Translations under genes and position numbers: made by a program | Assembly: GCA_009777515.1 (NCBI GenBank) | Contig: WRLR01000027.1 | Span: 1 to 41,017 of the forward strand | DNA length: 41,017 bases | Reading direction: 5' to 3' | DNA from: Oscillospiraceae bacterium | GTDB taxonomy: Bacteria > Bacillota > Clostridia > WRLR01 | Shown here: positions 7,039 through 40,322 of the stretch, in pieces | How positions within the stretch are numbered: position 1 is the first letter of the stretch | How the letters are laid out: each line of letters opens with the position of its first letter | Notes under the pieces: generated by a model | What the model was told of the DNA's origin: nothing | The model's database searches: none | Seen by the model: the letters and a program-made list of their open reading frames with translations, nothing else

Positions 7039-9162
7039 TCAAATTTGATATTCTGTGCGCGCCAGTACTTCTTCTTGCATTGTGGGAGACAGTTTTACGA
7101 AATAATCGCTATAGCCCCCTACGCGCACTATAACGTCGCGATATGCGTCGGGATTTTCTTTCGCTTTCAAAAGCGTCTCCCTATCCACAACATTTACTTG
7201 CAACTCAAACCCGCCGCGATCCAGATACGTTTTTATTATCGCAATCAATTTTTCTACTGACGCCTCGTTAAACATCTTTTTTGAAAACTTCATGTTAACC
7301 GCGACGCCGCCGATAAATTTATGGTGATCCCATTTTGTGCTCGATAAAACCGCTGCGGTAGGCCCCCGCAGCTCACGGCCCTGAGCCGGCCCGGAGCCGT
7401 CCCCCAAGGGGAAGCCCGCTTTCCTTCCATCCGGCGACGCGCCGGTTTTTTGGCCAAATTGGTCATGCATAATCCAGCAAAATAAGCTCGGGACGAGATA
7501 GTTTTCTTTCCGCTTTTGATATTTGCTCATTATATCAGTCAGCCACTGCGTCAATGATATGACGTATTTGTCGGCTTCATCGTTATCATTGCCATATTTG
7601 GGAACCGCATTCAATATTCTCTGCCTTACGATCTCATATCCATCATAATCATTTTTCAGCGCCGCACGAAGCGTATCCATAGGCAATTCCCCGCTGCCGT
7701 AGACGAGCTTTTCCAATACGCAAAGCGCATCCGCCACGTTCGACAAACCGACAAATGACGGCATTATCCAGTTGTAGCGGGCGCCGCCTTGCTCTATGTC
7801 CACTCCTTTTTCAAGGCAGTCGTTGACGAAGCAGGATAGCAACGGATCCATCATATATCTCGCGCGATCTGCGCGCAGCCTGGTCTCGTTTATAAGGTTT
7901 TCAACAATCCCGCTCTCGACATGGGCGAAATACGCGTCCAACAGCATCTCCAGCGAGGGATAGTCCTTTTCCATAACTTCCAGCAGCTTTTGCACAAGGT
8001 TCATGTACGGGCTGGCCACCCAGACGTTTGACGATGCAATTGGCGTTATTTCGACGCAAGTGGAATGGATGTAATCATGGGACTCATCCTTAGGCAGCCC
8101 GTGGAACTCTAGCCCTTTGGAAATCACATCGTCGTTGAAGATCGCGGGATGCGAGTGGCCTTCGCCCAATATTTCGCACGCAAGCCGCAAATCCTCCTCC
8201 GGCGTGTCCCGGCACCAGCAAAGGCCCACCCCCGGATAGATCAACCTGACATGGCGCACGGCTTCCATGCCCATTCGCGTTAAATCGTTGGAAACCACGC
8301 GCCCGTCTTTTTCCCGGCCCCCGACCATGTATCCGGATGCCAAGCCGCTGGGTATCCTTGTCTCCAACAGTATCGCATAGCAATCAATAAGCGTTTGGGC
8401 GAAATATGGGGTTATAATACCATTTTCCACATCATGCTTATAAAATTGCCATAAATACCTGTCGGGGCGCCCCAACTGATAAAGATGGCTGCCGGGCACA
8501 AAGGGCCTCGCGCTGATGCAAAAGGTTATAAAGTGCGCCGCTTGGATAGCTTCATAAAAACTTGAGGCTGGATAGCGCGGGGCTTTTCGCAGGTTTTTTG
8601 CGATTAAAAGTAGCTCTTGCCTGCGTTTTTCGCACCCACATGATTTGGCCTGTGCACAGGCTTCCTCCGCATAGCGTTCCGCGAAACGCATTACGCCCTC
8701 GAGCGAACGTATGCACGCCATGTAAAAATTGTCTTTTTCTATGTCCCCAGGCAGTGTAAGATCAAGCCTTTCCCGTTTTTTCGCGATGTCCGCGACAATG
8801 CCCTCTATGCCCTTGTTTAGCAGCAGATCATAGTCGATTGTCATGTGGGATGCCTGGCCGCGCATCGCTGGGGTGACCTGGATGGCATATTCTTCTAAAA
8901 GCTTGTATTCCTCCTGCTCGTCCTTTGTGAACTCCCTGCCAGCCATACGCCCGACAATTAATTCATCACTGCCGATATACGGAGCCGTGTTGTCGAAAAT
9001 ATCGTATATAGCTTCGCCGACCCGCAAAGCGTAGGCCTTATCCCTGTTGCGATCTTTTAAACTCTTGAAAAAGTGGTACTTCAGCTCACTGTAGTCATAA
9101 CTGCAACTTTGCGGGACAAGGCGCAATTTTTCAATTCTATCTTTGTCATAGCCTTTATCCAT
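7039..9162 (-). CDS. Glycyl radical enzyme, substrate unknown (PFL-like family)
   Basis: A 707-residue radical enzyme. The C-terminal glycyl-radical motif RVGGYSDYF puts the radical Gly at about 683. The thiyl-radical Cys is at 369 in STCVEITPIA, with Glu two residues later (C-V-E). That pattern is typical of the dehydratase/lyase branch and excludes pyruvate formate-lyase, which has two adjacent Cys. At about 700 residues it is shorter than HypD, choline lyase or glycerol dehydratase (about 790-850). It also shows YGNDNDEAD and GASPDGRKAGFPLGDG, which are common to the family. Its activase is encoded immediately upstream (68-bp gap) on the same strand, so the two form an operon. The ribosome-binding region is triplicated (9163-9222). 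The substrate cannot be named from sequence. Confidence 0.92.
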   Translation of the reverse strand: MDKGYDKDRIEKLRLVPQSCSYDYSELKYHFFKSLKDRNRDKAYALRVGEAIYDIFDNTAPYIGSDELIVGRMAGREFTKDEQEEYKLLEEYAIQVTPAMRGQASHMTIDYDLLLNKGIEGIVADIAKKRERLDLTLPGDIEKDNFYMACIRSLEGVMRFAERYAEEACAQAKSCGCEKRRQELLLIAKNLRKAPRYPASSFYEAIQAAHFITFCISARPFVPGSHLYQLGRPDRYLWQFYKHDVENGIITPYFAQTLIDCYAILLETRIPSGLASGYMVGGREKDGRVVSNDLTRMGMEAVRHVRLIYPGVGLCWCRDTPEEDLRLACEILGEGHSHPAIFNDDVISKGLEFHGLPKDESHDYIHSTCVEITPIASSNVWVASPYMNLVQKLLEVMEKDYPSLEMLLDAYFAHVESGIVENLINETRLRADRARYMMDPLLSCFVNDCLEKGVDIEQGGARYNWIMPSFVGLSNVADALCVLEKLVYGSGELPMDTLRAALKNDYDGYEIVRQRILNAVPKYGNDNDEADKYVISLTQWLTDIMSKYQKRKENYLVPSLFCWIMHDQFGQKTGASPDGRKAGFPLGDGSGPAQGRELRGPTAAVLSSTKWDHHKFIGGVAVNMKFSKKMFNEASVEKLIAIIKTYLDRGGFELQVNVVDRETLLKAKENPDAYRDVIVRVGGYSDYFVKLSPTMQEEVLARTEYQI

Positions 9163-9222
9163 ATACTTACGCTACCTTCCTAATACTTACGCTACCTTCC
9201 TTATACTTACGCCACCTTCCTT
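9163..9222 (-). repeat. Three tandem 20-bp copies carrying the ribosome-binding site
   Basis: Three head-to-tail 20-bp units (9163-9182, 9183-9202, 9203-9222) differ at only one or two positions. On the minus strand each reads AAGGAAGGTRGCGTAAGTAT, so each has a purine-rich Shine-Dalgarno-like AAGGAAGG. The copy nearest the ATG at 9162 has good spacing. The array fills nearly the whole activase-to-enzyme gap. Confidence 0.85.
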
Positions 9223-9230
9223 CGGCGAGC

Positions 9231-10139
9231 CTATGATGCGAACACCGGCACAACCGTATGCCTTTTCATAAATTCCACCCATTCCGCGACCATATCTATA
9301 GGGGTTATAGACGCGTCGGCGTGGCGTGCGATCTTACCGATGGCCTCAGCCTTCGATATGCCCAGCGGATGATATGGCTCGATGTCTATGTGGTCGATGT
9401 TTAAGAGCCGGCCCGCTAGCTCGCAGAGCTTTATAAAATGTGCCTCGTTATCATTGAGGCCCGGAATTATCGGGCAGCGCAGCACGATCTTTGCTCCTGA
9501 CGCGTCTAGCCGTTGATAATTTTCCAATATTGTCTCGTTAGTGACGCCTGTAAATTCTTTGTGGCGTAATGGATCAGTTTCTTTGACATCGCATAGAAAA
9601 ACATCTATAAACTTTGCCGCTTTATCAAGAATTTCATACGCCGCAGCGCCGCAAGTTTCAACACATGTGTGGAGGCCCTCGCTTTTGGCATGCGAGAGCA
9701 GGGCAATGGCGAATTCCGGTTGAAAAAACGGCTCTCCACCTGATAGTGTAATGCCCCCACCTGAATTGCGGTAGAATGCCTCATCTTTTTTTACTTCTTC
9801 CAAAACCTCCGCGACAGTAGCTTCCCTCCCAATGATTTCCAACGCGCCGGTAGGACATGCTTGTGTACATTTGCCGCAACGCGCGCAGCTATCTCGCATA
9901 AAAGAGTGTTGCCCTATATCCAAACCGTGCAGTTTTTCTTTGCAAGGAGCTACGCACGCGCCACAATAAAGGCATTTTGAAGGATAATAGGCGATTTCAG
10001 GTCTTTTTTCATGGGACTCAGGATTGTGGCACCACAAACAATCCAGCGGACAACCTTTCATGAATACTGTCGTCCGAATCCCTGGGCCATCATGGATTGA
10101 AAAGCGCTGTATATCAAATATGACTCCCTTTACATCCAT
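9231..10139 (-). CDS. Glycyl-radical enzyme activating enzyme (radical SAM)
   Basis: Generates the glycyl radical on the enzyme encoded just downstream by reductive cleavage of S-adenosylmethionine. The radical-SAM cluster motif is GCPLDCLWCHNP (CxxxCxxC), preceded by the activase signature RFSIHDGPGIRTTVF. A two-cluster ferredoxin insert follows (CLYCGACVAPC and CARCGKCTQACP), then the SAM-binding ITLSGGEPFFQ. Length of 302-308 residues is normal for GRE activases with a ferredoxin domain. I prefer the ATG at 10139, which begins MDVKGVIF; a GTG at 10157 in the same frame is possible, and AGGTGG lies far (about 14 nt) from the ATG, so the start is uncertain. Confidence 0.92.
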   Translation of the reverse strand: MDVKGVIFDIQRFSIHDGPGIRTTVFMKGCPLDCLWCHNPESHEKRPEIAYYPSKCLYCGACVAPCKEKLHGLDIGQHSFMRDSCARCGKCTQACPTGALEIIGREATVAEVLEEVKKDEAFYRNSGGGITLSGGEPFFQPEFAIALLSHAKSEGLHTCVETCGAAAYEILDKAAKFIDVFLCDVKETDPLRHKEFTGVTNETILENYQRLDASGAKIVLRCPIIPGLNDNEAHFIKLCELAGRLLNIDHIDIEPYHPLGISKAEAIGKIARHADASITPIDMVAEWVEFMKRHTVVPVFAS

Positions 10140-10186
10140 TGTATTCAAAGTAACCACCTAAAACATTACTTGCTGACATATCGCTC

Positions 10187-11657: not shown

Positions 11658-14165
11658 CTACATCGGTTGCTCCGTCCTGTTGATTATTTCGTCCTGCAGG
11701 GCTTTGTCCAGGTTCCGGAAGTAGTCGCTGTAGCCCGCGACGCGGACGATCAGGTCCCGGTATTCGTCCGGGCGCGCCTGGGCGTCAAGCAGGGTCTGCC
11801 TGTCCACGACGTTGAACTGTATGTGGTGGCCGTCCATCGTGAAATAGGAGCGTATCAACGCCGCGACGCTGCGCGTACCCTCATCGCCTTCCACGACGGA
11901 TGGCGTGAACTTTTGGTTGAGCAGCGCCCCGCCGGTCTTTAACTGGTCTAGCTTCGCGGCCGATTTCAAGACCGCCGTCGGCCCCTTGCGGTCTGCGCCT
12001 TTTTCCGGCGATATGCCATCAGCCAGAGGGACTCCGGCGCGCCTGCCGTTGGGGCTGGCCTGCATGACCTGGCCAAAATAAACATGGCATGTCGTCGGTA
12101 AAAACTCAACTATGGTCTTGGAACCTTTGGGCGTGTCGCGCCCGGCGATCGCCGCCTGCAGCGAGTCCGCAACGTTCCGCATTATGTCGTCGGCGTAGTC
12201 GTCGTCGTTGCCATATTTCGGCGCTTCGCACACGAGGTTGAAGATTTCCTCATGACCGTTAAAATCAGCGGCGCAGGCGTCGATCATCTGATCCAGCGTG
12301 AGCGCCTTGTCCTCGTATACAAGCTTTTTGATGGCGGCGAGCGAGTCCGTTATCGTGGAAATTCCCACGCACTGTATATAGCTGGTGTTATAGCGGGCGC
12401 CCCCGGCGTTGTAGTCGATGCCCCGCGCAATGCAGTCGTCGGTGATGACGGAGAGCAGCGGCACGGGCATATGGTTCATGTACATGCGCTCGATCAGGTT
12501 GTTGCCGGCGATCTTCACGTCGGCGACATATGCGAGCTGCTTGGCAAATGCGTCGTAAAGCGCCTCGTACGAGTCGAAGGCGGCATAGCTGGCAGCGTCG
12601 CCGCTTGTTCCGCCGCCTGCGCTACTACCAGTGCCACTACCATTGCCACTATCCGCGCCACTATCCTCGACGTCCAAGCCGGCCGGGTCGCCCAAGTCCA
12701 GACTGGCCTGCTCCCCGGTATATCTGTCGCGGCCCCGGAACAGCACGAGTTCCAGGATTTTCGGGACATTGAAGTAGCCGGTCAGTACGTACGCTTCTTT
12801 GCCGGCTGTACCCGTCTCTACGCAGCCGCTGGCGATGCCGCCCTCCCTGGCGTCGTCGACGGACTTCCCCATGTTAAGCAGCTCCTGTATTATGGCCTCG
12901 GAGTTGTAAAAGGCGGGCTGGCCCCATCCCTTTTTTGATATCTTCACGGCCTCGCGCAAAAAATGCTCGGGGGACTTGCGCGATATCTGGACATTGGAAC
13001 TGGGCTGCAGCAGCTTCATCTCATCCATCACTTCGAGGATGAGGTAGCTGACCTCGCTGACGCCGCATGTCCCGTCCGGGCGCAGCGCGCCTGTGTTGAT
13101 GTTGCAAAAATCCGTGTATGTGGCGCTCTCTTTGAGCGTGACGCCCACCTTGGGCGGCGCCGGTTGGTTGTTGAACTGTATCCAAAAGTTTTCCAAAAGC
13201 TCGCGCGCAAACGCCCTTGTCAAAGTACCATCATTGACCTCGCGCTCATAAAACGGCTCCAGATGCTGGTCAAGCTTGCCCGGGGAGTACGCGTCCCAGT
13301 TGTTCATCTCGACAGTCACGCCGATGTGCGTAAACCAGTACATCTGCAGCGCCTGCCGAAATGTGCGGGGCGCGTGCGCCGGCACGGCGTCGCACACCGC
13401 CGCGAGTTCCAAAAGCTCCGCGCGCCAAGCCGGATCGGCCTCAGCCGCCGCCAGCTCCCTTGCCAGGGCGGCGTAGCGTTCGCCTAATATGATCATGCCC
13501 TCGCACGCGAGTCGCATCCCGGCCAGTTCCTCGCGCTTGTCCAACGCCGACGCATCGTTAAGATAGTCGAGCGAAGCGATCGCCGCGTCGATGTCCTCAA
13601 TAAAATCAAAATAACCTTTTTGGTATATCCGGCCGCCCGCAACCGTGTGCCCGGGCCCGCGCTGCATCAAAAACTCCGTGAACAGCCCGCCCCGGAACAA
13701 CCTGTGCCATTCCTCCGGCAACAGCGCGTTGATTTTTTCCATCATCGCCCGCCCGCGCCAATAGGGGATGACGACGTCGCGCTGGATGCGCCTGTCCTCC
13801 TCTGTAACTTGGAAAAATACGTTTTCCCTGTCGTTCATGTTGTCGAAATCAGACAGGGTATGGCAGCACAGCTCCGGGAACGTGGGCGCCGCCCACGGCT
13901 TGTGCCCTTTCTCACCGACGATGAGCGCGCCCCGTTCCAGGTAGAGGGTTCGGCGCTCCATTATATATTTAAAAGCATGGCCCCGCAGCACGGCGGGCGA
14001 GCATTTGCCCTCGTACAACTGATAGGCCTCCGTGAGCAGTACGGCCCGTTCCATAGATATGGACGGCTGCGACTCTTGCTCGCTGATCCGCCTCAGCCTG
14101 CGGATACGCTCCGTGGAGCCCCTACCCGCAGCGTCCGTAGTGACGGGTACATTAACTGTAGCCAT
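11658..14165 (-). CDS. hypD: Trans-4-hydroxy-L-proline dehydratase-like glycyl radical enzyme
   Basis: Probably removes water from trans-4-hydroxyproline to give pyrroline-5-carboxylate. Thiyl Cys448 and Glu450 lie in SGCVETGTAGKEAYVLTGY; the glycyl-radical loop is RVAGYSDYF with Gly811. The blocks FNNQPAPPKVGVTLKES, QPSSNVQISRKSPEHFL, GWGQPAFYNSEA, LPTTCHVYFGQVMQASPNGR and GHHIQFNVVDRQTLLDAQ match my memory of the HypD subfamily far better than PFL, choline or glycerol lyases. At 835 residues it exceeds the roughly 790 of HypD. The excess sits in a Ser/Gly/Asp-rich insertion at about 497-530, between the Cys and Gly loops. GGGGGTAAGG precedes the ATG. The activase lies upstream on the same strand. 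No proC is seen nearby. HypD is likely, not proven. Confidence 0.82.
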   Translation of the reverse strand: MATVNVPVTTDAAGRGSTERIRRLRRISEQESQPSISMERAVLLTEAYQLYEGKCSPAVLRGHAFKYIMERRTLYLERGALIVGEKGHKPWAAPTFPELCCHTLSDFDNMNDRENVFFQVTEEDRRIQRDVVIPYWRGRAMMEKINALLPEEWHRLFRGGLFTEFLMQRGPGHTVAGGRIYQKGYFDFIEDIDAAIASLDYLNDASALDKREELAGMRLACEGMIILGERYAALARELAAAEADPAWRAELLELAAVCDAVPAHAPRTFRQALQMYWFTHIGVTVEMNNWDAYSPGKLDQHLEPFYEREVNDGTLTRAFARELLENFWIQFNNQPAPPKVGVTLKESATYTDFCNINTGALRPDGTCGVSEVSYLILEVMDEMKLLQPSSNVQISRKSPEHFLREAVKISKKGWGQPAFYNSEAIIQELLNMGKSVDDAREGGIASGCVETGTAGKEAYVLTGYFNVPKILELVLFRGRDRYTGEQASLDLGDPAGLDVEDSGADSGNGSGTGSSAGGGTSGDAASYAAFDSYEALYDAFAKQLAYVADVKIAGNNLIERMYMNHMPVPLLSVITDDCIARGIDYNAGGARYNTSYIQCVGISTITDSLAAIKKLVYEDKALTLDQMIDACAADFNGHEEIFNLVCEAPKYGNDDDYADDIMRNVADSLQAAIAGRDTPKGSKTIVEFLPTTCHVYFGQVMQASPNGRRAGVPLADGISPEKGADRKGPTAVLKSAAKLDQLKTGGALLNQKFTPSVVEGDEGTRSVAALIRSYFTMDGHHIQFNVVDRQTLLDAQARPDEYRDLIVRVAGYSDYFRNLDKALQDEIINRTEQPM
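12595..12675 (-). repeat. Low-complexity in-frame insertion in the HypD-like gene
   Basis: A microsatellite-like run of short GC-rich triplet/hexamer variants encodes about 30 residues of Ser, Gly, Asp and Ala (residues about 497-530 of the enzyme). It sits between two conserved blocks of the barrel and accounts for the protein being longer than typical HypD. The frame is kept. Confidence 0.75.
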
Positions 14166-14311
14166 ACCTTACCCCCAAAATACATTAATATGCCAATCAT
14201 TTGCGCTTCCGAATAATAACTATAATAACTACTATGAAAGTCGTTGGCTCGGAAAATGCGATTTCCCTCGCCTCACGGGCATGAAACGCCCGCGCGTCGC
14301 GTTGCGCCGCG

Positions 14312-14372
14312 ATAGTGTTCACGCCGCCATACTTTCGTGCCATATTGGTGACGGCACTGTCGTGAACACTAT
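14312..14372. repeat. Inverted repeat between the HypD-like gene and its activase
   Basis: A perfect 12-bp inverted repeat (ATAGTGTTCACG at 14312-14323, CGTGAACACTAT at 14361-14372) has partly complementary sequence inside (GCCGCCATA against TATTGGTGACGGC). In the transcript it would form a long imperfect hairpin. It lies in the unusually large 278-bp gap inside an otherwise simple operon. It may tune enzyme-to-activase ratio or be a small mobile repeat. Confidence 0.6.
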
Positions 14373-14443
14373 TATATGATTATAAGCTAAATCATTGCAT
14401 AATATTATCATTATATTTATATTTATCATCTACATATTTTTAT

Positions 14444-15412
14444 CTACATATTTATGCCGCCGCCGACGCCGGCCTTGAAGCCGGACGCAAACCAAAAATG
14501 CCTCAGCTCGTCCAACCTTTCCGCATGCGGCGCGTCAAATGCCGGCGGTGCGAGACCCAGCCTCGTGTATTTGCCGCGCGCGTACGCGTGGTATGGCAGC
14601 AGGCTGATAAACTTCGGCTTTACCTGCTTCGCTTCCAGCCAGCGGGCGATGCGCTCCATGTCGTCCAGGCCGTCGTTGACGCCCGCGAGCAGCGGCAGCC
14701 GCAGGCAAATCGCCGCCCCGTCGCGGCTGAGCTGTGACAAATTCTCCAAAATGCGTTTGTTGGATACGCCCGTATAAAATATATGTTTGCTGTCGTCCAG
14801 CATTTTTATGTCATATAGGAACAGGTCCGTCAAGTGCAGCACTCCCGCAAACGCGGCATATGGGACGTCCCCGCAGGTGTCAATGGCGACAGAGACGCCC
14901 CGGCGCCCCAGCTCTTCCATCAGCGCGGAGATATACGCCATATTGCACGACAGCGGCTCCCCGCCGGACAGCGTCGCGCCGCCGCCGGACTCGTCGTAAA
15001 ATATCCTGTCTTTTGCCAGTTCGTCGGCCAGTTCGCCGACAGACCATGCCCTGTAGGTTGTGCCCGGGTCGCGTTCGCCTTCCTGACCGTTCCGGCTTTC
15101 CCGATCGCACATGCCTTCCTGGCCGCTCCAGCTTTCTGGTTCGCGCTCGCCTTCCTGGCTGCTCCGGTTTTCTGGTTCGCGCCCACCTTCCAAGTTGGAC
15201 AATCCTGCTGAATTGATCAACCCCTCCGGATTGTGGCACCATTTGCAACGCAGCGGGCAACCGCAAAAAAACACGGTTGTGCGGATGCCCGGACCGTCGT
15301 GGATGGAAAACCTCTGTATGTTGAATATATACGGCTCATATTGGCGGCTGGCACAGCCATGATAATAATTCACGATGTGATTATTTATACTCTTTTTTAA
15401 TTCTTTTGCCAT
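14444..15412 (-). CDS. Glycyl-radical activating enzyme for the HypD-like enzyme
   Basis: A 322-residue radical-SAM activase. RFSIHDGPGIRTTVFF leads into CGCPLRCKWCHNPEG, with cluster Cys at about 52, 56 and 59; SGGEPLS and DTCGDVPY follow. It is the expected partner of the HypD-like enzyme downstream. Where the neighbouring activase (9231-10139) has an eight-Cys ferredoxin insert, this one has about 50 residues of Glu/Arg/Ser/Gln repeats with a single Cys (residues about 67-117), so auxiliary clusters appear absent. No good Shine-Dalgarno precedes the ATG, leaving the start uncertain; a GTG 13 codons in is an alternative. Transcribed from the promoter at 15449-15477. Confidence 0.88.
   Translation of the reverse strand: MAKELKKSINNHIVNYYHGCASRQYEPYIFNIQRFSIHDGPGIRTTVFFCGCPLRCKWCHNPEGLINSAGLSNLEGGREPENRSSQEGEREPESWSGQEGMCDRESRNGQEGERDPGTTYRAWSVGELADELAKDRIFYDESGGGATLSGGEPLSCNMAYISALMEELGRRGVSVAIDTCGDVPYAAFAGVLHLTDLFLYDIKMLDDSKHIFYTGVSNKRILENLSQLSRDGAAICLRLPLLAGVNDGLDDMERIARWLEAKQVKPKFISLLPYHAYARGKYTRLGLAPPAFDAPHAERLDELRHFWFASGFKAGVGGGINM
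15063..15206 (-). repeat. 36-bp tandem repeat inside the activase gene
   Basis: About four imperfect 36-bp units, each encoding 12 residues of the type ESRSGQEGEREP. They replace the region where most activases carry a ferredoxin domain. All units are multiples of three, so the frame survives copy-number change. Confidence 0.85.
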
Positions 15413-15743: not shown

Positions 15744-16556
15744 ATGTACTTTGCAATGGATGAAATAGGATTCGAAAATACAGAGTTAATAAAAACGATT
15801 GAATATGAAGCTGATAGATGGAAATTTATTTATGATGTAGCGAAAACATACGGTTTTGATGGCATACATTTTACTCCGTCATTATACAAAATATTCAATC
15901 TCGACATTAAACATATTCCCGATTATTTTAAAGAGTTTAGGCTTACTTTGCATCTTGGTGGCATACACACAATAATTTCCGAAAACGATAATGATATATT
16001 TGAAAAAGAGTTTGAAAATGCATTTGGTATTGCCCTTGAATACAATATGCACGATGTATCAATCCATCCGCCATATATCTATAAATTAACAGCGGAAGAA
16101 AAAAGTATAGCGCTGGATTATTTGGATAAATCAATCGATAAATGGATAAAAAAGTTAAGCTCCAAAGGTATTTCATTATCATTAGAAACCCATGTTACTG
16201 GTGAATGGTTTCTATTTGATGGCTTACACGAATATGTAAAATTTATAAACAACCACCCTGCTTTAGGGGTACTCATAGATATTTCGCATAATTATTATAA
16301 TCCGCAATACTCCGAGCATGATATTATAAACATTTTGGGTAATAAAAATGTTAAAGGGCTGCATATCAGCGACGCGCTCCGCAGCGCAGAATTTTTTGAT
16401 GGCACCCATTTAGCAATCGGCAGCGGCACGATTGATTTTCCGATACTGTTAAAGGGCTTTGAAAAGTTTACAGATTTGTATTGCGTGCTGGAAATAAAAT
16501 CACAAAACGAGGGCATAGAAAGTAGCCTTAAAATATTGAAAAAAATAGTTAACTAA
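15744..16556 (+). CDS. Sugar phosphate isomerase/epimerase-like TIM barrel, AT-rich
   Basis: A 270-residue TIM-barrel protein of the AP-endonuclease-2/xylose-isomerase-like fold. It has YGFDGIHFTPS early, LTLHLGGIHTI, VSIHPPYIYK, ISLSLETHVTGEWF, LGVLIDISHNYY, VKGLHISDAL and YCVLEIKSQ. Those His, Glu and Asp residues are the expected metal ligands. It differs from the sugar-isomerase-like protein at 3605-4507 and is much richer in A and T than its neighbours, with many AAA, ATT and TAT codons, which suggests acquisition from elsewhere. GGGAGA nine bases upstream supports the ATG. The methyltransferase-like gene follows after 32 bp. Substrate unknown. Confidence 0.78.
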   Translation: MYFAMDEIGFENTELIKTIEYEADRWKFIYDVAKTYGFDGIHFTPSLYKIFNLDIKHIPDYFKEFRLTLHLGGIHTIISENDNDIFEKEFENAFGIALEYNMHDVSIHPPYIYKLTAEEKSIALDYLDKSIDKWIKKLSSKGISLSLETHVTGEWFLFDGLHEYVKFINNHPALGVLIDISHNYYNPQYSEHDIINILGNKNVKGLHISDALRSAEFFDGTHLAIGSGTIDFPILLKGFEKFTDLYCVLEIKSQNEGIESSLKILKKIVN

Positions 16557-16588: not shown

Positions 16589-17080
16589 ATGGGGCGCAGG
16601 CAAATAAGGTGCCATGGCGATGAGGGGCGGTTTGAGGTAGTCGCGCAGTACATATATCAGCGTTATGGCGACAGCATCGAATATATAGCCGACGTCGCGG
16701 GAGGGCAGGGCCTCCTCAGCAGAATCCTCAACAAAAAATACAATTACAGCGCAGAGGTGATAGACCCCAGGGGCAACACGCTCACGGGCGTCCCGTCGAA
16801 GCAGGCCGATTACGCCCCCGAAATGGCGCCTTTCTACGATCTGATTGTCGGGCTGCACCCAGACGCCGCTACGCGTGCGGTCGCCCAAAGCGCGCTGTAC
16901 CGCCCTGTTTTGCTCGTGCCCTGTTGCAACGAGTGGGACAAGTCGCAAAAACTGGGCTCTCGCGAATTGGTACAATCGATTGTTGATTATTTCAACAATT
17001 TGGGCATACCCAACGAAACCGTCGAATTTGATATAAAAAAGCCGAAAAACATCGGCATTATAACAGGAGCATTATCATGA
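16589..17080 (+). CDS. Small SAM-methyltransferase-like protein
   Basis: A 163-residue protein with a Rossmann-type motif I, IADVAGGQGLLSRIL, at about 32-46, and an acidic strand end VIDPRG about 15 residues later, as in class I SAM-dependent methyltransferases. Later blocks PFYDLIVGLHPDAATRAV and LVPCCNEWDKSQKLG include paired Cys. The C-terminus is shorter than most methyltransferases, so target recognition may be minimal or partner-dependent. AGGAGA nine bases upstream supports the start. It is close behind the TIM-barrel gene and probably co-transcribed. The large intergenic region with its own promoter after it argues that it is not part of the TerB cassette. Target unknown. Confidence 0.65.
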   Translation: MGRRQIRCHGDEGRFEVVAQYIYQRYGDSIEYIADVAGGQGLLSRILNKKYNYSAEVIDPRGNTLTGVPSKQADYAPEMAPFYDLIVGLHPDAATRAVAQSALYRPVLLVPCCNEWDKSQKLGSRELVQSIVDYFNNLGIPNETVEFDIKKPKNIGIITGALS

Positions 17081-17224
17081 GAATGCCCAGGCACATTTAT
17101 AAGATACATTCCATGGATATATTCTTTGACATATTTTTTGAAATATACTCATAAAATCCTTGCGCCCTCTTGAACAGCAACGATCAACTAGAAACGCCGA
17201 CATAGCGACATGGCATGGTATAAT

Positions 17225-17337: not shown

Positions 17338-19434
17338 ATGGACAGAAGCGGGGGATATTCGGCATACAGCATACCGAGGCGTGCCAAACCGGGCAACGCC
17401 AGGCAAAGCGCTATGGGCGATACATGGCATAACGTTCCGGTAAATACGCGGCAAAACGCGCCTCGTACGCCCGGGCAGACGGGCGCCTCTGCATCAACGC
17501 AAACATCCGAGCAAACGCCAATACAGGCGACGCCAATGCAGGCGCCGCCCATGCAGGCGCCCATGCAGGCGATGCCCACTCAGGTCGATTTGTTCAGTGT
17601 AGCGGCTTTGAAAGACATGGAATTCGCAGAAATTGAGTTGGGCGCGGGTGGCGCGCAAATAATCGGCACATCGCAACCACCGGCCCGCGAGTCGCAGCCA
17701 CCGGCTCACGCTCTGCAACCACCGGCCCGCACTCTGCAGCCACCGACCCACGCTCTACAGCCTCCGGCCTACGCTTTACAACCACCGGCTCACAGGTCGC
17801 AGCCGGCCCTCACATCGCAGCCGACCCTCACGTTGCAACCGGTCCTCACATCGCAGCGGATCCCTCACAGACGAGTCGATCCTATACGCGAACGCTTCTA
17901 TAAAATGCGCAGCCTCACCGGCGGCAGCCCTTTTGGCCGAAACGACTCCGGCTTGTTCTACAGGCAGGCCCGTTTCATGGAGGATTTTGCCGACGATTAC
18001 GAGGGGAATGCAAAGTTTTCCATGTACTACCCATCATATCAGTACATGGGCTACGAACAGCTCCGCACCTATTTTACCTGGCGCACCGGTGTCCGCAGCG
18101 GATTGTACCGCCCTGCTTCGTTGTCCTTTGTATTTCTACATTTATATGAATTGCTGTCCGGCGTAGGCTCGAGCAGCCTGAAAGAAGGTCCGGGCAAAAT
18201 GGTCAGCATATGGCGCGCATACGCGGAACAGTACCCGTCGCTAAACAACTATCTACCCGGCTGGATCAAGGACTATCATATCTACTACAACATGCCGGAC
18301 ACGTTGATGAGCTTCATTGAAGAGCATGGGCTGCGCGGCTTCTTTCCGGAACTGTTTTTCTTCGACGACGACAAAAAAATCCTTTTATGGAACAAAGCTT
18401 CCAGTTATAATATAGCAAAGTCCATATTTTACACATCTGAAAACGAACATTTGATGTGCGATTGTTTTAACGCCGTTTTCGATGGCCTTAAAGGGCTGTG
18501 TGAGAAGCATAGTATACATCCGGCTAACTTATTTACCAATTATACAGGTGCTGCGCAACGCTGGGTCCCGTTTGATCGCGCTCTCTTCCATTACTGGCAT
18601 TCGCAGCCGGACTGCGTGATTGCGCTGCCGGGGGGCGAGATTTACTATTGCAAAAAAAACCATTGGACGACGGAGCCCACAATGTGGGACAGCGGCAAAA
18701 ACGAACTCATTGGGTATACGCTTAAAAAGACCGAGGCTTGCTTGCGCGAGACTGTAGGCTTCAAGTATAAAATTACGGCCAACCCACGCAGGGCGGCGTA
18801 TCATTTAAGGAAAAAAGGGATCCCTATTTTACTGTTTGATAGCGCAATCGAAAAAGCGGTAACGGATTTTTATAAAGATATGAACCGCACCGTTGTCAGC
18901 GTCGATCATATGAACCTGGCGCGTATCCGCATAGAGGCGCAAGGGACGAGGGACAAGTTGATTGTCCCGGACAAGTTGATTGTCCCGGACACATTAATCG
19001 TCACGGACAAGTTGATTGTTCCAGACAACGGGGCGGCTCTGGAATGGCCGGCAGAAATTGACGCAGGCGGCGCAGATGGCGTGGATAGCGCCGTGGCAGC
19101 GGACGGAAGTAGCGGTGCAGAAGGAAGTAGTGTTGCGGATAATGCGGACACAGTCGCCGGTACAAAAAGCGCGGATAGCGCCATCGAAGCAGGCGGATGG
19201 CTCGCATTTTATGAATCGCTGAGCGCCGTTGAGCGCGGTGCGCTTTCCATGATCATAAGCGGCGTAGGGGACATCAAAACGTACGCGGACGACAACGGCT
19301 GCATGATCGAAGTGCTTGCGGACGGCATCAACGAAAAAGCGTCCGACTTCATTGGCGACAATATCATGGAAACGGGCGACGGCATATTTGTATATGATGA
19401 GTATAAAGACAGGCTTATGGAGATCGCGTTATGA
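17338..19434 (+). CDS. TerB N-terminal/TerB C-terminal domain protein
   Basis: A 698-residue protein, first gene of the cassette. Residues 1-180 are Pro/Gln/Ala/Thr-rich repeats. The conserved part begins near 180 with RERFYKMRSL, then FYRQARFMEDFADDYEG and MYYPSYQYMGYEQLRTYFTWR, the TerB_N pattern. Four LIVPDK-like repeats and an Ala/Gly/Asp-rich linker follow (about 538-615). The end (from about 625, LSAVERGALSMIISGVGD to DEYKDRLMEIAL) looks like TerB_C. TerB domains are linked to stress and phage-defence systems; tellurite resistance itself is not implied because no terC/D/E/Z is nearby. Its stop overlaps the ATPase start (ATGA), so translation is coupled. The exact biochemical role is unknown. 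Confidence 0.82.
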   Translation: MDRSGGYSAYSIPRRAKPGNARQSAMGDTWHNVPVNTRQNAPRTPGQTGASASTQTSEQTPIQATPMQAPPMQAPMQAMPTQVDLFSVAALKDMEFAEIELGAGGAQIIGTSQPPARESQPPAHALQPPARTLQPPTHALQPPAYALQPPAHRSQPALTSQPTLTLQPVLTSQRIPHRRVDPIRERFYKMRSLTGGSPFGRNDSGLFYRQARFMEDFADDYEGNAKFSMYYPSYQYMGYEQLRTYFTWRTGVRSGLYRPASLSFVFLHLYELLSGVGSSSLKEGPGKMVSIWRAYAEQYPSLNNYLPGWIKDYHIYYNMPDTLMSFIEEHGLRGFFPELFFFDDDKKILLWNKASSYNIAKSIFYTSENEHLMCDCFNAVFDGLKGLCEKHSIHPANLFTNYTGAAQRWVPFDRALFHYWHSQPDCVIALPGGEIYYCKKNHWTTEPTMWDSGKNELIGYTLKKTEACLRETVGFKYKITANPRRAAYHLRKKGIPILLFDSAIEKAVTDFYKDMNRTVVSVDHMNLARIRIEAQGTRDKLIVPDKLIVPDTLIVTDKLIVPDNGAALEWPAEIDAGGADGVDSAVAADGSSGAEGSSVADNADTVAGTKSADSAIEAGGWLAFYESLSAVERGALSMIISGVGDIKTYADDNGCMIEVLADGINEKASDFIGDNIMETGDGIFVYDEYKDRLMEIAL
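17671..17850 (+). repeat. 21-bp and 18-bp tandem repeats in the TerB gene
   Basis: Six 21-bp units (17671-17796) encode QPPAxxL/S heptads, followed by three 18-bp units (17797-17850) encoding hexads of the type QPTLTS. All preserve frame and form a Pro/Gln-rich linker before the TerB_N domain. Confidence 0.88.
18952..19023 (+). repeat. 18-bp tandem repeat in the TerB gene
   Basis: Four 18-bp units (18952, 18970, 18988, 19006) encode DKLIVP, DKLIVP, DTLIVT and DKLIVP. They mark the start of the variable linker between the TerB_N and TerB_C parts. Confidence 0.88.
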
Positions 19435-20753
19435 GCATGAACAACCAAGTCCCGGCGCGGATAGCGAACATCCTGATCAACGCCCTCAAAGGCGGCGTCG
19501 TGCCGAGGGTGGGGCTGGAGTACATTACGGTCGGGCGGGCGCAGGAAATCGCAGCCATCCTGCACGACATTGATTTGATATCGGACGGCAGCGCGTCGTT
19601 CCGGTTCATCGTCGGCAGGTACGGCAGCGGAAAAAGCTTCCTGCTGCAGACCATCCGCAACTACGCCACGGCCAAAGGCTTTGCAGTCGTCGACGCCGAC
19701 CTCTCCCCCGAGCGTCGCTTCGCCGGGACAAAGGGCCAGGGGCTGGCTACATACAAAGAGCTCATGCAGAACCTCTCCACCAAGTCAAAGCCCGACGGCG
19801 GGGCGCTGCCGCTAATTCTGGAACGTTGGATCTCCGGTATCCAGGCGACAGTAAAAGCGCAGTCGGACCTCGAAGGGGAGGCGTTCGACCTCCAGGTGGA
19901 AAAGCAGATATACGCGGTGGCCGGCGCCCTTGAAGGGATGGTGAACGGGTTCGAGTTCGCGAAAGCCGTCGTCGCCTACTGGCGGGCGTACCTGAACGAC
20001 GACGCGGCGGCAAAGGGCAATGTACTCAAATGGTTCCGGGGCGAATACCCCTCGCGCAGGGAGGCCAAGGCCGATCTGGACATAAATTTTATTGTTACAG
20101 ACGAAAACTGGTACGACTTTTTGAAGCTGCTCGCGGCGTTCCTGGTCGGCGCGGGCTACAATGGGCTGCTGGTGCTGATTGACGAGCTGGTCAACATCTA
20201 CAAGATACCCAACTCGATCACGCGGCAGAACAACTACGAAAAAATACTCACGATATACAACGACGTGTTGCAGGGCAAGGCGCAGCACATCGGCTTCTTG
20301 ATGGGCGGTACGCCGCAGTGCATCGAGGACAAATACAAAGGCGTGTTCAGTTATGAGGCACTCCGCTCGCGGCTGGCGGAGGGGCATTTCGCCGCCGAGG
20401 GCATAAAGGACTTGTCCGCCCCGATCATCAGGCTGCAGATGCTCACACAGGAAGAGATGTATGTGCTTGTGGAGAAATTGCGCGACATCCACGCGCAACT
20501 GTTCCATTATGCGCCCACTCTGAGCCACGACGACCTGGTGTATTTCCTCACCGTGGAGTACAACAGGGTCGGCGCCGAAACCCATATCACACCGCGCGAG
20601 ATCATCAGGGACTTCATAGAACTCGTCAACATCCTCCACCAAAACCCCGGCACAAGCGCCGCAGGCATATTGGGCGGCAACAGCTTCGAGCTGGCCAAAG
20701 GCGGCCTGACAGACGAGGACATACACACAGAATTTGTCGAGTTTGACGTATAG
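19431..20753 (+). CDS. BREX-type ATP-binding protein, BrxD/DUF2791 family
   Basis: A 440-residue AAA-like ATPase. Walker A is VGRYGSGKSF (residues 61-70) and Walker B is LLVLIDE (246-252) followed by LVNIYK. Further family blocks are FAVVDADLSPERRF, FLMGGTPQCIEDKYKGVFSYEALRSRL with its likely sensor/arginine region, and the C-terminal ITPREIIRDFIELVNIL. This matches the BrxC/BrxD (PF10923-type) ATP-binding family known from BREX type 2. The start ATG overlaps the previous stop and GGAG lies eight bases upstream. The helicase follows after 13 bp, a typical BrxD-BrxHI arrangement. It probably powers DNA recognition or movement by the complex; that is inference. Confidence 0.87.
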   Translation: MSMNNQVPARIANILINALKGGVVPRVGLEYITVGRAQEIAAILHDIDLISDGSASFRFIVGRYGSGKSFLLQTIRNYATAKGFAVVDADLSPERRFAGTKGQGLATYKELMQNLSTKSKPDGGALPLILERWISGIQATVKAQSDLEGEAFDLQVEKQIYAVAGALEGMVNGFEFAKAVVAYWRAYLNDDAAAKGNVLKWFRGEYPSRREAKADLDINFIVTDENWYDFLKLLAAFLVGAGYNGLLVLIDELVNIYKIPNSITRQNNYEKILTIYNDVLQGKAQHIGFLMGGTPQCIEDKYKGVFSYEALRSRLAEGHFAAEGIKDLSAPIIRLQMLTQEEMYVLVEKLRDIHAQLFHYAPTLSHDDLVYFLTVEYNRVGAETHITPREIIRDFIELVNILHQNPGTSAAGILGGNSFELAKGGLTDEDIHTEFVEFDV

Positions 20754-20766
20754 GGGCTGTAAAACA

Positions 20767-22968
20767 ATGGACGTATTTAACCGGCTTGCGCCGTTCATAC
20801 AGGAATATATATACCAAAACAAATGGGAGGAGCTGCGCGGCATACAGGTCGCGGCATGCGAGGCTATTTTCGGCGGCGGCGGCAACCTTCTGCTTTCGTC
20901 CGGTACCGCCTCCGGTAAGACCGAGGCCGCCTTCCTCCCGGTGCTCACAGAACTTTACGAAAACCCGTCAAAGTCGGTCGGCGTCATTTACATATCGCCG
21001 CTGAAGGCTCTCATAAACGACCAATTCAAGCGGCTGGAGCAGCTCCTGATCGATTCCAATATCCCGGTCGTCAAATGGCACGGGGACGCATCGCAGACTA
21101 AGAAGAACGCCCTGGTCAAAAATCCGGAGGGCCTCTTGCAAATCACGCCGGAGTCGCTGGAGAGCCTGCTGACCAACAAGCGCGGCGCTTGCCTACAGAT
21201 GTTCTCGGACCTGCGCTTCGTGATCATCGACGAGGTGCACCACTTCATGCGCGACGCACGGGGCATCCAGTTGCTCTGCGTGCTGGAGCGCCTGCAAAAG
21301 CTGACCGGCGTCATGCCGCGCCGCATAGGGCTGTCCGCCACGCTCGGCGACGTGTCGCTGGCGCAGGCATGGCTCAACACCGGCACGGGGCGGGACTGCG
21401 TCGCGCCCGTCACCGACGAGGGCAAAAAGCGTGTCCGGCTGCATGTGGAGCGCTTTGTAAACTACAGCGACAAGCGCGACTTCGTGGAGCGGGATGGCAG
21501 CGGGAACGTGGTCAATGTCAGCGGCGACGGGGATATCGGCGTCCGGGAGCACTATGAGTATCTGTTTAAGATGACGCTGGACAAAAAGACAATCATCTTT
21601 ACGAACAGCCGCGAGGAGACCGAGTTCGTGATGGCCAACCTGCGCGAGATCGCCATGCGGAACAAGGCGCCGGATATATACAGAGTGCACCACGGCAACG
21701 TGTCGGCGTTGATCCGAGAGACGACAGAGGACGAGATGAAGTCCGACGACGAGAAGACCGTCACCGGCGCTACCGTGACGCTCGAGCTCGGCATCGACAT
21801 CGGCTCGCTCGATCAGGCGGTGCAGGTCGGCGCGCCGCTCAACGTCTCCAGCTTTGCCCAGAGGCTCGGCCGCTGCGGGCGGCGCGGCCAGACGCCGCAG
21901 CTTCTGTTCACCTTCGTCGAGAGCATCCGCATAAACTCCTCCGACACGCTCGGCCCCATCAACTGGGAGTTCATCCGCACGATTGCGATCATAGAGCTGT
22001 ATACCAAGGAGCGCTGGCTGGAACCGATATACCCGCACAACCACGCGTACAACCTGCTCTATCACCAGACGATGAGCCACTTAAAGAGCTGCGGGGAGCT
22101 GTCCCCGGCGGCGCTGGCGCAGGCGGTACTGGCCCTCGGCTGCTTCCGGCATATACCACAGGACGACTACAGGGCGCTACTCGCCCATTTGATAGACACG
22201 GAGCAGCTCGAGCGCACCGAGCGGGGCGGGCTGCTTATCGGGCGCGAGGGCGAGAAGATCGTCAACAGCCACAAGTTCCTCACGGTTTTTATCGCCCCTG
22301 AATATCTTCTCGTAAAAGACGAAAACCGCACCATTGGTACAGTGGACAAGGTCTACCCCGTGGGTATACGCTTCGCCCTGGCTGGGCTCACATGGGAGAC
22401 GGTGGACGTCAACGAAAAGAGCAAGGTCATATTTGTCAAGCGCGTGCCGGGCATTTCCGTCGTGGACTGGGACGTGGACTTCGAAGCGGAGCTGCACACG
22501 GTGCTGGTGAGGAAAATCCGCGCGATCCTGCAATCAGACGAAGCGTACCCGTACCTTAGCATACGGTGCGCCGAGCGTCTGGCGGAGATACGGTACATCG
22601 CCCGGAACAGCGGCATATTGGAAAACCTTGTGACGCCGCTGTCCGAGAAAAAATACGCCGTCTTCCCCTGGGTGGGGACGCGGCAGCTTTTGACGCTGCA
22701 CTACGCGCTGCTGCGCAGGGGCATAAAGAACAAGCTACCCTGGATCACCTGCGTCTACCTGGAACTGATATACGAGGGCGACGCTGGCGAGTTGGAACAA
22801 CTGATACGCGATATTGTGCGCAGCGATATCGATTTATACGATCTGCCGCTGCCGGACAACGTGCAAGTCAAGGGAAAGTACAACGAGTTCATCCCGACGG
22901 GCCTTTTGCGCAAGCAGTTCATTGAGGATTTTTTAGACTTGGACGGCCTGCGGGAGGCGTTTACGTAA
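20767..22968 (+). CDS. Lhr-like DEAD/DEAH-box helicase, BrxHI type
   Basis: A 733-residue superfamily 2 helicase. Motif I is SGTASGKTEAAF (45-56), motif Ia YISPLKALINDQF, motif II DEVH (155-158), motif III SAT (190-192) and motif VI QRLGRCGRRGQ (365-375). A long C-terminal region with a winged-helix-like middle resembles Lhr helicases and the BrxHI family. I start at the ATG at 20767, preceded by AGGGGC; an in-frame TTG at 20734 would overlap the ATPase gene and is less likely. It is the last gene of the cassette and ends seven bases before a convergent oxidoreductase gene. Likely a DNA translocase/helicase of the TerB-BrxD system. Confidence 0.9.
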   Translation: MDVFNRLAPFIQEYIYQNKWEELRGIQVAACEAIFGGGGNLLLSSGTASGKTEAAFLPVLTELYENPSKSVGVIYISPLKALINDQFKRLEQLLIDSNIPVVKWHGDASQTKKNALVKNPEGLLQITPESLESLLTNKRGACLQMFSDLRFVIIDEVHHFMRDARGIQLLCVLERLQKLTGVMPRRIGLSATLGDVSLAQAWLNTGTGRDCVAPVTDEGKKRVRLHVERFVNYSDKRDFVERDGSGNVVNVSGDGDIGVREHYEYLFKMTLDKKTIIFTNSREETEFVMANLREIAMRNKAPDIYRVHHGNVSALIRETTEDEMKSDDEKTVTGATVTLELGIDIGSLDQAVQVGAPLNVSSFAQRLGRCGRRGQTPQLLFTFVESIRINSSDTLGPINWEFIRTIAIIELYTKERWLEPIYPHNHAYNLLYHQTMSHLKSCGELSPAALAQAVLALGCFRHIPQDDYRALLAHLIDTEQLERTERGGLLIGREGEKIVNSHKFLTVFIAPEYLLVKDENRTIGTVDKVYPVGIRFALAGLTWETVDVNEKSKVIFVKRVPGISVVDWDVDFEAELHTVLVRKIRAILQSDEAYPYLSIRCAERLAEIRYIARNSGILENLVTPLSEKKYAVFPWVGTRQLLTLHYALLRRGIKNKLPWITCVYLELIYEGDAGELEQLIRDIVRSDIDLYDLPLPDNVQVKGKYNEFIPTGLLRKQFIEDFLDLDGLREAFT

Positions 22969-34686: not shown

Positions 34687-36726
34687 ATGTATAAAAAGGA
34701 AATCAGCTTCCTGGATTTTGAAGCGCGCGGCGCCAAAATCATTAAACAGACCGCCACCTCCCTTGTTATGGAAATACCCAAAGGCGGCGGCGGGGCTGTA
34801 TTGAAAGGCCCCGCAGGCAAGGTGGGCGGCGCCGACTGGGCGGCGGCCAAGTGGCTGTATTTTGACGTCTACAACCCCAACAAGGACGTATTCGCGACCG
34901 TCGTGGAAATCGGGTTCTGGAGGGACGGCATGGACGTGGACGCCGATGATCCGCGCTTCGTGGACGGCGTCGGCATTTACCCCAACTACATGACGCGTAC
35001 GAGCGTTGGATTTTCGGAGCTTGCCGCGCAAAACGTCTTCCTGCCGCAGACCCCCGGCGGGCTGAAAGCGGTCATGACGGGGCGCGCGGTGGTGCCGACA
35101 GAGGCCGTTGCGTTGTTTTTGGGCGGGCGCGAATGCCACGAAACGCAGGTATTTGAATTTTACAACCTCACACTGAGCGAAGAGGAACCGGACTACCCGA
35201 TGCCCGACTTGAAGCTCATGGACAAGCTTGGCCAGTGGACGCAGAAGGACTGGGAAGGCAAGACGCGCCGCGTGGAGGATCTGGTGGACTACCTGCGCTC
35301 CGAGTACGACAAACCGCTTGTTGCCAACCCTAAACTCAGCAAATGGGGCGGATGGCTGGACAAAAAGTTCGACGCGACCGGCTACTTTAGGACCCAGCAC
35401 GACGGCAAGCGGTGGTGGCTCGTCGATCCCGACGGCTACGTCTTCATTTCCGCCGGGATGGACTGCATACAAGCCAGGGAGTCATCGCGCGTGACGGACT
35501 GGGAGGGCGCGTACGAGTGGCTGCCCGTGCGTCACGGTAAGTACAATGCGGCTTACGCCGTCTCCTCCGGTGACCCGACGCGCGGCCGGCGCGTGCGCTA
35601 CTCGGAGCTGGTCAGCTTCTCCATCATCAACCTGATCCGCGCGTTCGGCGAAAACTGGTACGAAGCCTGGTGCAAGATAACGCGCCGTCGACTCGCCGAG
35701 TGGGGTATCAACACACTGGGTAACGGCGCCGAACCGGAATTCGTGAAATACTCAAAAATGCCGTGGTGTTTTTTCATGCGCGGCTTCCCCAGGACCGACG
35801 TGACGATTTACCGGGACTTCCCCGACGTCTATTCGCCGCAGTACGCGGAGCGCGCCGAAGTGTTCGCACAGCAGCTCGTCCCATACCTGGACGACCGCTA
35901 CATGCTGGGTTATTATCTGACAAACGAGCCGGAGTGGGGCTTTGGCCACGACATTGAGATATCAGAGCACATGCTGGAGATCCCGGTCGAATCCGATTGC
36001 AAAAATGTGTTCATAAAGAAAATGGCAGATAAATACAGGAGCATCGACGCGTTCAACAAGGCGTGGAACCTGTCTCTTTCCGGTTTTGACGATCTGAAAA
36101 AGTCCATCAGGGACGCAAGGAAGCTGTCGGAAGCGGCGGCGGCGGATTTGAGCGACTTCTCCAGGGAGATCATCACGCTATTTGCGAAGATCCCCTCCGA
36201 GGCCACCAAAAAGGTGGACCCCAACCACCTCAACATGGGGATGCGCTACGCGTATATCGGTTTTGAGAATCAGGTCGCGGGGCATGAGTATTTCGACATT
36301 TTCGATATTAACAACTATTCATTCGACTGCCGCGAGTACCTTGACTGGATTGGCGGCCTCGTAGAGCAGCCCATACTCATCAGCGAATTCCACCACGGCG
36401 CCCTGGACAAGGGCGTGCCGTGCACGGGCATCCGGGGCGTTCGCACCCAAGCCGAGCGCGGGCAGGCGTACAGGCACTATGTCGAGCAAGCGCTGCGCTC
36501 CAACTATCTGGTGGGCGCGCATTACTTCATCCTGAACGACCACCCCGCCATCTGCACAAGCTATCAGGAGAACTACAATATCGGCTTCGTGGACATCTGC
36601 AACCGCCCGTACGGCGAATTTACCGACCAGGTCGCGCAGACGAACGAGCAGATATACGCGGTGGCTAACCACGACATAGCCGCGTATGACAACCCGCCCG
36701 ACGGCATCCCGATGAACACTGTATAG
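34687..36726 (+). CDS. GH50-like (agarase-type) glycoside hydrolase
   Basis: A 679-residue glycoside hydrolase. A beta-rich N-terminal domain (to about 185) precedes the TIM-barrel part that starts near KKFDATGYFRTQHDGKRWWL and LVDPDGYVFISAGMDC, resembling GH50 beta-agarases. The likely acid/base is Glu414 in YYLTNEPEW and the likely nucleophile Glu567 in PILISEFHHGALDKG, matching the clan GH-A layout. No signal peptide is visible, so it should act in the cytoplasm on imported oligosaccharides and not on polymeric agar. AAAGGAG nine bases upstream supports the ATG. A strong terminator follows at 36753. Substrate is uncertain; agarase is the closest known activity. Confidence 0.75.
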   Translation: MYKKEISFLDFEARGAKIIKQTATSLVMEIPKGGGGAVLKGPAGKVGGADWAAAKWLYFDVYNPNKDVFATVVEIGFWRDGMDVDADDPRFVDGVGIYPNYMTRTSVGFSELAAQNVFLPQTPGGLKAVMTGRAVVPTEAVALFLGGRECHETQVFEFYNLTLSEEEPDYPMPDLKLMDKLGQWTQKDWEGKTRRVEDLVDYLRSEYDKPLVANPKLSKWGGWLDKKFDATGYFRTQHDGKRWWLVDPDGYVFISAGMDCIQARESSRVTDWEGAYEWLPVRHGKYNAAYAVSSGDPTRGRRVRYSELVSFSIINLIRAFGENWYEAWCKITRRRLAEWGINTLGNGAEPEFVKYSKMPWCFFMRGFPRTDVTIYRDFPDVYSPQYAERAEVFAQQLVPYLDDRYMLGYYLTNEPEWGFGHDIEISEHMLEIPVESDCKNVFIKKMADKYRSIDAFNKAWNLSLSGFDDLKKSIRDARKLSEAAAADLSDFSREIITLFAKIPSEATKKVDPNHLNMGMRYAYIGFENQVAGHEYFDIFDINNYSFDCREYLDWIGGLVEQPILISEFHHGALDKGVPCTGIRGVRTQAERGQAYRHYVEQALRSNYLVGAHYFILNDHPAICTSYQENYNIGFVDICNRPYGEFTDQVAQTNEQIYAVANHDIAAYDNPPDGIPMNTV

Positions 36727-36752
36727 CGGCTTCATATTGATAATATCAAGAG

Positions 36753-36785
36753 GGAGGCGCAGCTCACGGCTGCGTCTCCTTTTAT
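36753..36785 (+). terminator. Intrinsic terminator after the GH50-like gene
   Basis: An 11-pair stem (GGAGGCGCAGC with GCTGCGTCTCC, one G-T pair) and five-base loop are followed by TTTTATT. It starts 26 bp after the GH50-like stop codon. Confidence 0.88.
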
Positions 36786-36834
36786 TCGCTTGGCGGCAGG
36801 CGATGTGGAACAGTGGCGCAGCAATAAACATTCT

Positions 36835-37305
36835 TTATAGCCACAGTGCCTCGCTCAAAACATTTGTGCCGTGGATGTAATCCAGGTTGACCAGCCGGGA
36901 CAGCAGGTGCGCCCGCTCGTCGTCGGTCAGCGCGTGCAGCTTGACCGGCGGGTCGGAGGCCGACATCCTTTTTATGATGCCGTCGATATTTTCGATCCTG
37001 TCCCGCGCCACCGAAATCCGGTCCTGCCACATCGCTTTTTTATGGGCCATCGCTTCCATGTAGGCGTCCCTGTCGGGGCCGCGCTCCAGAAGCCCCTTGA
37101 TTTCCGCCAGCGTAAAACCCAGGGCCCTCAGCTCGATCAGCGCGTCGAGCCGTTTCACCTGGTCAGCCGAATAATAGCGGTACCCCGTCGCTTCGTCAAT
37201 CTTCACAGGCGTCAGCACGCCCGCCTTTTCATATATACGCATAGCTTTGACCGATACATTATAAAAGGCCGCTATCTCACCAATGCGAAACAAAACGTCG
37301 TCCAT
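36835..37305 (-). CDS. MerR-family transcriptional regulator
   Basis: About 156 residues. The N-terminal winged helix-turn-helix reads FRIGEIAAFYNVSVKAMRIY, followed by the MerR wing ATGYRYYSADQVKRL and LGFTLAEIKGLL. A coiled-coil dimer helix follows (about 80-118), with a short C-terminal tail too small for a BmrR-type ligand domain. GGAGGTGTT directly before the ATG at 37305 favours this start over an upstream ATG at 37326. It lies just downstream of the ABC exporter genes on the same strand and is the natural candidate for controlling them, as MerR proteins often control drug exporters. Ligand unknown. Confidence 0.9.
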   Translation of the reverse strand: MDDVLFRIGEIAAFYNVSVKAMRIYEKAGVLTPVKIDEATGYRYYSADQVKRLDALIELRALGFTLAEIKGLLERGPDRDAYMEAMAHKKAMWQDRISVARDRIENIDGIIKRMSASDPPVKLHALTDDERAHLLSRLVNLDYIHGTNVLSEALWL

Positions 37306-37362
37306 AACACCTCCGGTAAATATCACGATATATTCTAAATCCCACAGAGGACGTGGGGACGC

Positions 37363-37386
37363 AGGGCGCCGAGGGCGTCGCCCCTA
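37363..37386. repeat. Palindromic repeat at the 3' end of the ABC permease gene
   Basis: GGGCGCCGAGGGCGTCGCCCCTA is an imperfect palindrome with a CCCTA end, a divergent member of the CCCTACA palindrome family. It overlaps the stop region of the ABC exporter subunit at 37384. A related divergent copy lies at about 2110-2135. Confidence 0.45.
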
Positions 37387-39133: not shown

Positions 39134-39202
39134 ACGGATGCCGCATCGCCCCCCTCTCTAACTCTACCAGTTCCTTGCAACCTCCCGCGCCCGCCTATTA
39201 CG

Positions 39203-40135: not shown

Positions 40136-40322
40136 ATCCCCAGCCCCCTCCCCGTAAGCATCGTAAACCATGCCCCAGGGACAGAGTCAAGCCTGTTTGG
40201 GATGAAATATGCATAATACTATAGTTAGGAAAAAAACTTAGACATTTGACTTAGTTTGTCAAGGAGAACTTTTGGTAGCGCGGTTTATGATATGATACAT
40301 AACAACATGAGAATCATGATAG

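Follow-up and report, generated by a model that had tools for sequence, protein, structure and literature searches.

The window that was analysed is a stretch of 41,017 nucleotides, which is one whole contig of a draft assembly (4.54 Mb in 272 contigs, 91% complete, 7.5% contamination). Positions 17338-22968 of its plus strand contain three intact, co-directional open reading frames of 698, 440 and 733 amino acids. The following features were found at this locus:

17197-17224, plus strand: weak promoter-like site (CCGACA-16-TATAAT) before sngA, no better than expected by chance
17338-19434, plus strand: sngA, TerB_N/TerB_C protein of 698 aa (PADLOC SngA model, 4.5e-57; Pfam TerB_N and TerB_C)
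17515-17869, plus strand: tandem-repeat stretches in the Pro/Gln-rich SngA linker, arrays 17515-17584, 17673-17793 and 17797-17869 (TRF, alignment), predicted to be disordered
18951-19028, plus strand: 18-bp repeat, 4.3 copies, in the SngA linker before TerB_C, coding for (D/T)(K/T)LIV(P/T) (TRF, alignment)
19431-20753, plus strand: sngB, BrxC/BrxD-family P-loop ATPase of 440 aa (PADLOC SngB model, 2.8e-179; Pfam PF10923, 2.2e-159; Walker motifs)
20767-22968, plus strand: sngC, Lhr/BrxHI-type SF2 helicase of 733 aa (PADLOC SngC model, 1e-220; Lhr model match; helicase motifs)

The genes sngA and sngB overlap by four bases (ATGA, 19431-19434), and sngB and sngC are spaced by 13 bases. A first-pass annotation had described exactly this arrangement, and its assignment of the three products to a TerB_N/TerB_C protein, a BrxC/BrxD ATPase and an Lhr/BrxHI-type helicase was verified with Pfam and PADLOC. 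For sngC, an alternative start codon (TTG 20734) would add 11 amino acids; ATG 20767 was favoured because the relatives align at MDxFxRLAPF. The promoter scan upstream of sngA revealed two sites, while 1.1 were expected. Two further open reading frames were considered as operon members and rejected, i.e., an upstream 163-aa ORF (16589-17080) and a TIM-barrel ORF (15744-16556), neither of which had homologues in 87 related loci. Because the genes that flank the cassette in the window are absent from the other loci, the unit consists of exactly three genes.

Comparison with PADLOC-DB revealed that all three proteins match the models of the Shango system best, far above the BREX models. The match of SngA covered 63-526 of 528. 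For SngB the Shango model was compared with BrxD (2.8e-179 versus 1.1e-47) and for SngC with BrxHI (1e-220 versus 3.1e-116), and in both cases Shango was ahead by more than 100 orders of magnitude. The sequence features of Shango are all present, i.e., an SngA with TerB domains, an SngB-like ATPase with intact Walker motifs and an SngC-like helicase, encoded in one operon. Judged by sequence, the three genes are thus sngA, sngB and sngC of Shango, an already published three-gene anti-phage system and not a new one. In Pseudomonas aeruginosa PA14, Shango is encoded in cDHS1 by three genes for a TerB protein, a helicase and an ATPase, and in PAO1 it reduced the efficiency of plating 10-100-fold for many phages and also gave protection in liquid culture (Johnson et al. 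2023, PMC10250203). The same paper cites its discovery also in immune islands of E. coli (Millman et al. 2022). By analogy to these tested homologues, the operon of the window would be active against phages as well, and the defence role that had been proposed for it is supported by this homology.

The sequences of the two enzymes are well preserved. SngB is a member of the BrxC_BrxD family (PF10923) with a Walker A motif (GRYGSGKS, residues 62-69) and a Walker B motif (IDEL, residues 250-253). SngC contains a DEAD domain (5.8e-29) and a Helicase_C domain (7.9e-15), and motifs I, II, III and VI of the helicase were found as GTASGKTE (46), DEVH (155), SAT (190) and QRLGRCGRRGQ (365); their residues are mostly invariant in an alignment of 37 sequences. 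As both the Walker motifs of the ATPase and the helicase motifs are present, the enzymes appear to be functional. The predicted structure of SngC (pTM 0.84) resembles an Lhr-like helicase along its whole length, and the best fold match in the PDB was the mycobacterial Lhr 5v9x (E 3e-27, 829 alignment columns, TM 0.68). A nuclease domain was recognised neither in SngB nor in SngC by Pfam, nor by the fold search with the SngC model.

SngA matches TerB_N (2.2e-25) and TerB_C (7.6e-10), and it is the sole protein with a TerB_N match in the window genome. The predicted structure has a folded core (about residues 175-545 and 612-698) with disordered linkers between, and almost all positions within residues 1-168 and 546-615 have a pLDDT below 50. 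Short tandem DNA repeats make up most of the Pro/Gln-rich and acidic linkers (TRF). The Pro/Gln repeats were not found in the aligned relatives, and some members of the close clade share conserved short N-terminal motifs around them, of the types Y...IP and FAEIE. The 18-bp repeat before TerB_C looks like a duplication of a conserved KLIV-type motif. The linkers had been regarded as consistent with an adapter; they are real and predicted to be disordered, but the Pro/Gln stretches are probably neutral and no special adapter feature, because they are private repeat expansions in a linker that is variable across all relatives. Two neighbouring pairs of a glycyl-radical-type enzyme and a radical-SAM activase are encoded on the minus strand of the window (7039-10157 and 11658-15412). 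The second enzyme, which was judged from its translation, and its activase contain low-complexity or repeat insertions; repeat-expanded linkers thus seem to be frequent here, in agreement with SngA repeats that arose neutrally.

SngA is also much more divergent than its partners. In the same loci the mean identity was 42% for SngA versus 80% for SngB and 78% for SngC. The linkers are not the cause of this contrast, because the folded core alone gave 34-51% identity between the window and its close clade. The residues F207, Y245, F246, R249, R253, E271, D312, R470, R531, N665 and D674 are invariant in the alignment, and no nuclease motif was recognised among them by eye. The SngA model had no significant match among the PDB folds, only weak winged-helix-like fragments with E values of about 1. 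A sequence search of the PDB revealed no solved structures of SngA or SngB relatives, and no Shango structure.

No mechanism of Shango was found in the open-access literature that was searched. A tentative scheme, which we put at somewhat below even odds, is that SngA docks or senses, SngB switches or loads, and SngC acts on the phage DNA. The fast-evolving, multi-domain SngA with its flexible linkers would recognise or dock onto an infection-specific signal, the P-loop ATPase SngB would serve as a loader or an ATP switch, and SngC, as an Lhr-type DNA translocase, would be brought to phage DNA that is invading or replicating, and would disrupt it. No methyltransferase is encoded, and the discrimination between self and non-self would therefore probably not operate via DNA modification. 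As no recognised nuclease domain is encoded either, destruction of DNA, if any, would be brought about by remodelling or by a host nuclease. A role of the TerB protein as sensor or scaffold had been suggested before; a sensor or adapter is plausible in view of the divergence of SngA, which relaxed constraint could also explain. It is possible, though rather unlikely, that SngA, which diverges much faster than its two partners within one mobile lineage, is the specificity subunit and each variant recognises a different phage cue. If so, a constant engine of ATPase and translocase would be re-targeted whenever SngA is exchanged.

A different division of labour, which would alter the mechanism but not the identity as Shango, is that SngA itself is a nuclease or an NTP-dependent toxin, while SngB and SngC are the sensors. 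The lack of a recognised nuclease domain in SngB and SngC and an SngA model unlike any solved structure are in line with this. However, the invariant residues of SngA did not reveal a nuclease motif, and effector cores are usually better conserved than SngA, so that this explanation is unlikely.

A survey set of 80 loci, nearly all from Clostridia and relatives, was collected with an SngB profile. Both partner genes were present in 61 of the 80 loci. The order sngA-sngB-sngC on one strand with gaps below 400 bases, which was counted only for the loci with enough flank, was found in 45 of 56 cases. The overlap of sngA and sngB was exactly four bases in 32 of 70. Exceptions include insertions of genes between sngB and sngC, a displacement of sngC by 6 kb (L033), and a sngB without sngA and sngC (L031 and apparently also L030). 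In L076, a transposase-like ORF pair, judged from the translations, is present in place of sngC. In two loci, L021 (2097-10109) and L023 (7241-15133), the operon is directly followed by a second gene for an SngC-like helicase, which is split into two ORFs in L023.

SngB of the window is 85% identical to a Lacrimispora copy, while the RpoB proteins are only 65% identical. Across 11 genomes (55 pairs), mean identities were 80% for SngB, 78% for SngC and 63% for RpoB; SngB exceeded RpoB in 53 of the 55 pairs, with a correlation of -0.23. At the level of protein identities, this excess over RpoB shows that the cassette has been transferred horizontally. The pattern is not explained by contamination of the window draft, because pairs with a Lacrimispora celerecrescens strain (L029) behave alike, with 52% (RpoB) versus 87% (SngB) against L028 and 64% versus 87% against L032. 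In addition, SngB homologues were found in 692 plasmid records, mostly from Klebsiella and Salmonella, and 542 of the 692 are predicted to be conjugative. Three plasmid regions were inspected; two have the annotated trio of TerB protein, ATPase and helicase, and the third lists only ATPase and helicase. No SngB homologue was found in 50,697 phage records, and the only strong match to a tyrosine integrase in the genome is on another contig than the window. The genes next to 55 contiguous cassettes belong overwhelmingly to ordinary metabolism, with only few defence hits among them, and a published survey described R-M genes that co-localise with Shango genes outside defence islands (PMC10924106). 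A lack of association with defence islands had been named in the first-pass annotation as a refutation; this applies only in part, because the Clostridial cassettes are mostly located among metabolic genes, yet they move horizontally, and Shango homologues have been tested against phages. Elsewhere in the window, two ORFs for ABC-transporter transmembrane domains (37384-38331 and 39203-40171, within 36319-38331 and 38489-40171, minus strand) are each followed by shorter separate ORFs where the ATP-binding half is expected; they are possibly broken or frameshifted exporters.

The metabolic neighbourhood would also suit a housekeeping or DNA-repair operon, in which an Lhr-like helicase, an ATPase and a TerB partner maintain the chromosome and defence plays only a secondary role, or none, in Clostridia, and Lhr helicases do work in DNA repair. 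However, the presence is patchy (8 of 60 relatives have matches, of which some are distant and BrxD-like), the cassette has clearly been transferred horizontally, homologues are carried on plasmids, and tested homologues have anti-phage activity (PMC10250203). A housekeeping function is therefore highly improbable.

The first-pass annotation had regarded sngB and sngC as orphan BREX accessory genes, and had noticed that neither PglX nor PglZ is encoded close to the cassette. PglZ (PF08665), a core protein of BREX type 2, had no match anywhere in the 91%-complete window genome, and no other BREX gene, including those for PglX and BrxC/PglY, was seen among the window ORFs that were Pfam-scanned. 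One PglX and one BrxC probe had no match in the flanks of the 80 related loci, and PglZ was absent from 40 of the 49 searched genomes with SngB homologues, in line with a self-standing unit that is independent of pglX and pglZ. Missing BREX genes are thus unsurprising, because SngABC without BREX is the normal state of the family. BREX core genes adjoin only distant SngB homologues of the same class (27-28% identical). In L024 and L025, BrxD-like genes lie beside PglZ together with BrxC-like or Eco57I/PglX-like genes, and BrxHI-like genes are present too; therefore, the method detects BREX where it is present. A further cluster was observed in L006 (8510-13534, contig 14 of genome G000), where two tandem, divergent PF10923 (BrxC/BrxD-like) ATPases of 387 and 414 aa occur with a 259-aa protein that belongs to no known family, divergent to a PbeA-like SF2 helicase. 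The cluster is located between glycolysis-type and transporter-type genes, its genome lacks PglZ, and it may represent a relative of BrxD-based systems that has not been described so far.

That the window contains what is left of a BREX type 2 locus, or an accessory module of it (BrxD and BrxHI), with PglX and PglZ lost and a TerB gene acquired, has some appeal given the matches to BrxD and BrxHI and the genuine BREX-like loci in the same class, but it is largely refuted by the model scores and the absence of PglZ, and with BREX-adjoining BrxD-like proteins so distant it is hardly credible. The orphan-BREX interpretation is therefore corrected to a named defence system. The earlier BrxHI impression is explained by an independent helicase tree from a study of Hachiman, where SngC clusters with BrxHI, DruE and DpdJ as a potentially distinct group of immune helicases (PMC12278908).

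Taken together, we estimate a probability of about 95% that this locus is an intact Shango (SngABC) operon for defence against phages, from a horizontally moving lineage in a Clostridia-like host, alone in a metabolic neighbourhood. The analysis adds well-bounded Clostridial Shango loci and shows a mobile unit that persists in the absence of BREX and for the most part away from defence islands. The operon is a well-preserved member in an unremarkable position; of some interest is only how strongly SngA diverges in comparison with SngB/SngC, a testable hint about the phage-sensing subunit.

Three known systems can be compared with the operon. The mycobacterial Lhr (PDB 5v9x) is the best fold match of the SngC model, yet it is only 21% identical. 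As a helicase, Lhr serves in chromosomal repair; it has a larger C-terminal part and is not known to have SngA or SngB partners. BrxD and BrxHI of BREX type 2 (Pgl) belong to ATPase (PF10923) and SF2 helicase families homologous to SngB and SngC; in contrast to BREX, the window genome has no PglZ, no PglX or BrxC/PglY was seen nearby, and the model scores are much weaker. The two BREX-like loci that were examined (L024 and L025) are without an SngA-like protein, unlike the window. On sequence criteria, the Shango ATPase and helicase are related to, yet clearly distinct from, BrxD and BrxHI. The known Shango shares all three domains with the window operon, i.e., TerB-like protein, ATPase and DEAD/DEAH helicase. 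In contrast to the known copies, the operon of the window resides in a Clostridia-like host and outside any visible defence island, its SngA has private Pro/Gln repeat expansions, and its SngB is only about 42% identical to those of the proteobacterial plasmid copies.
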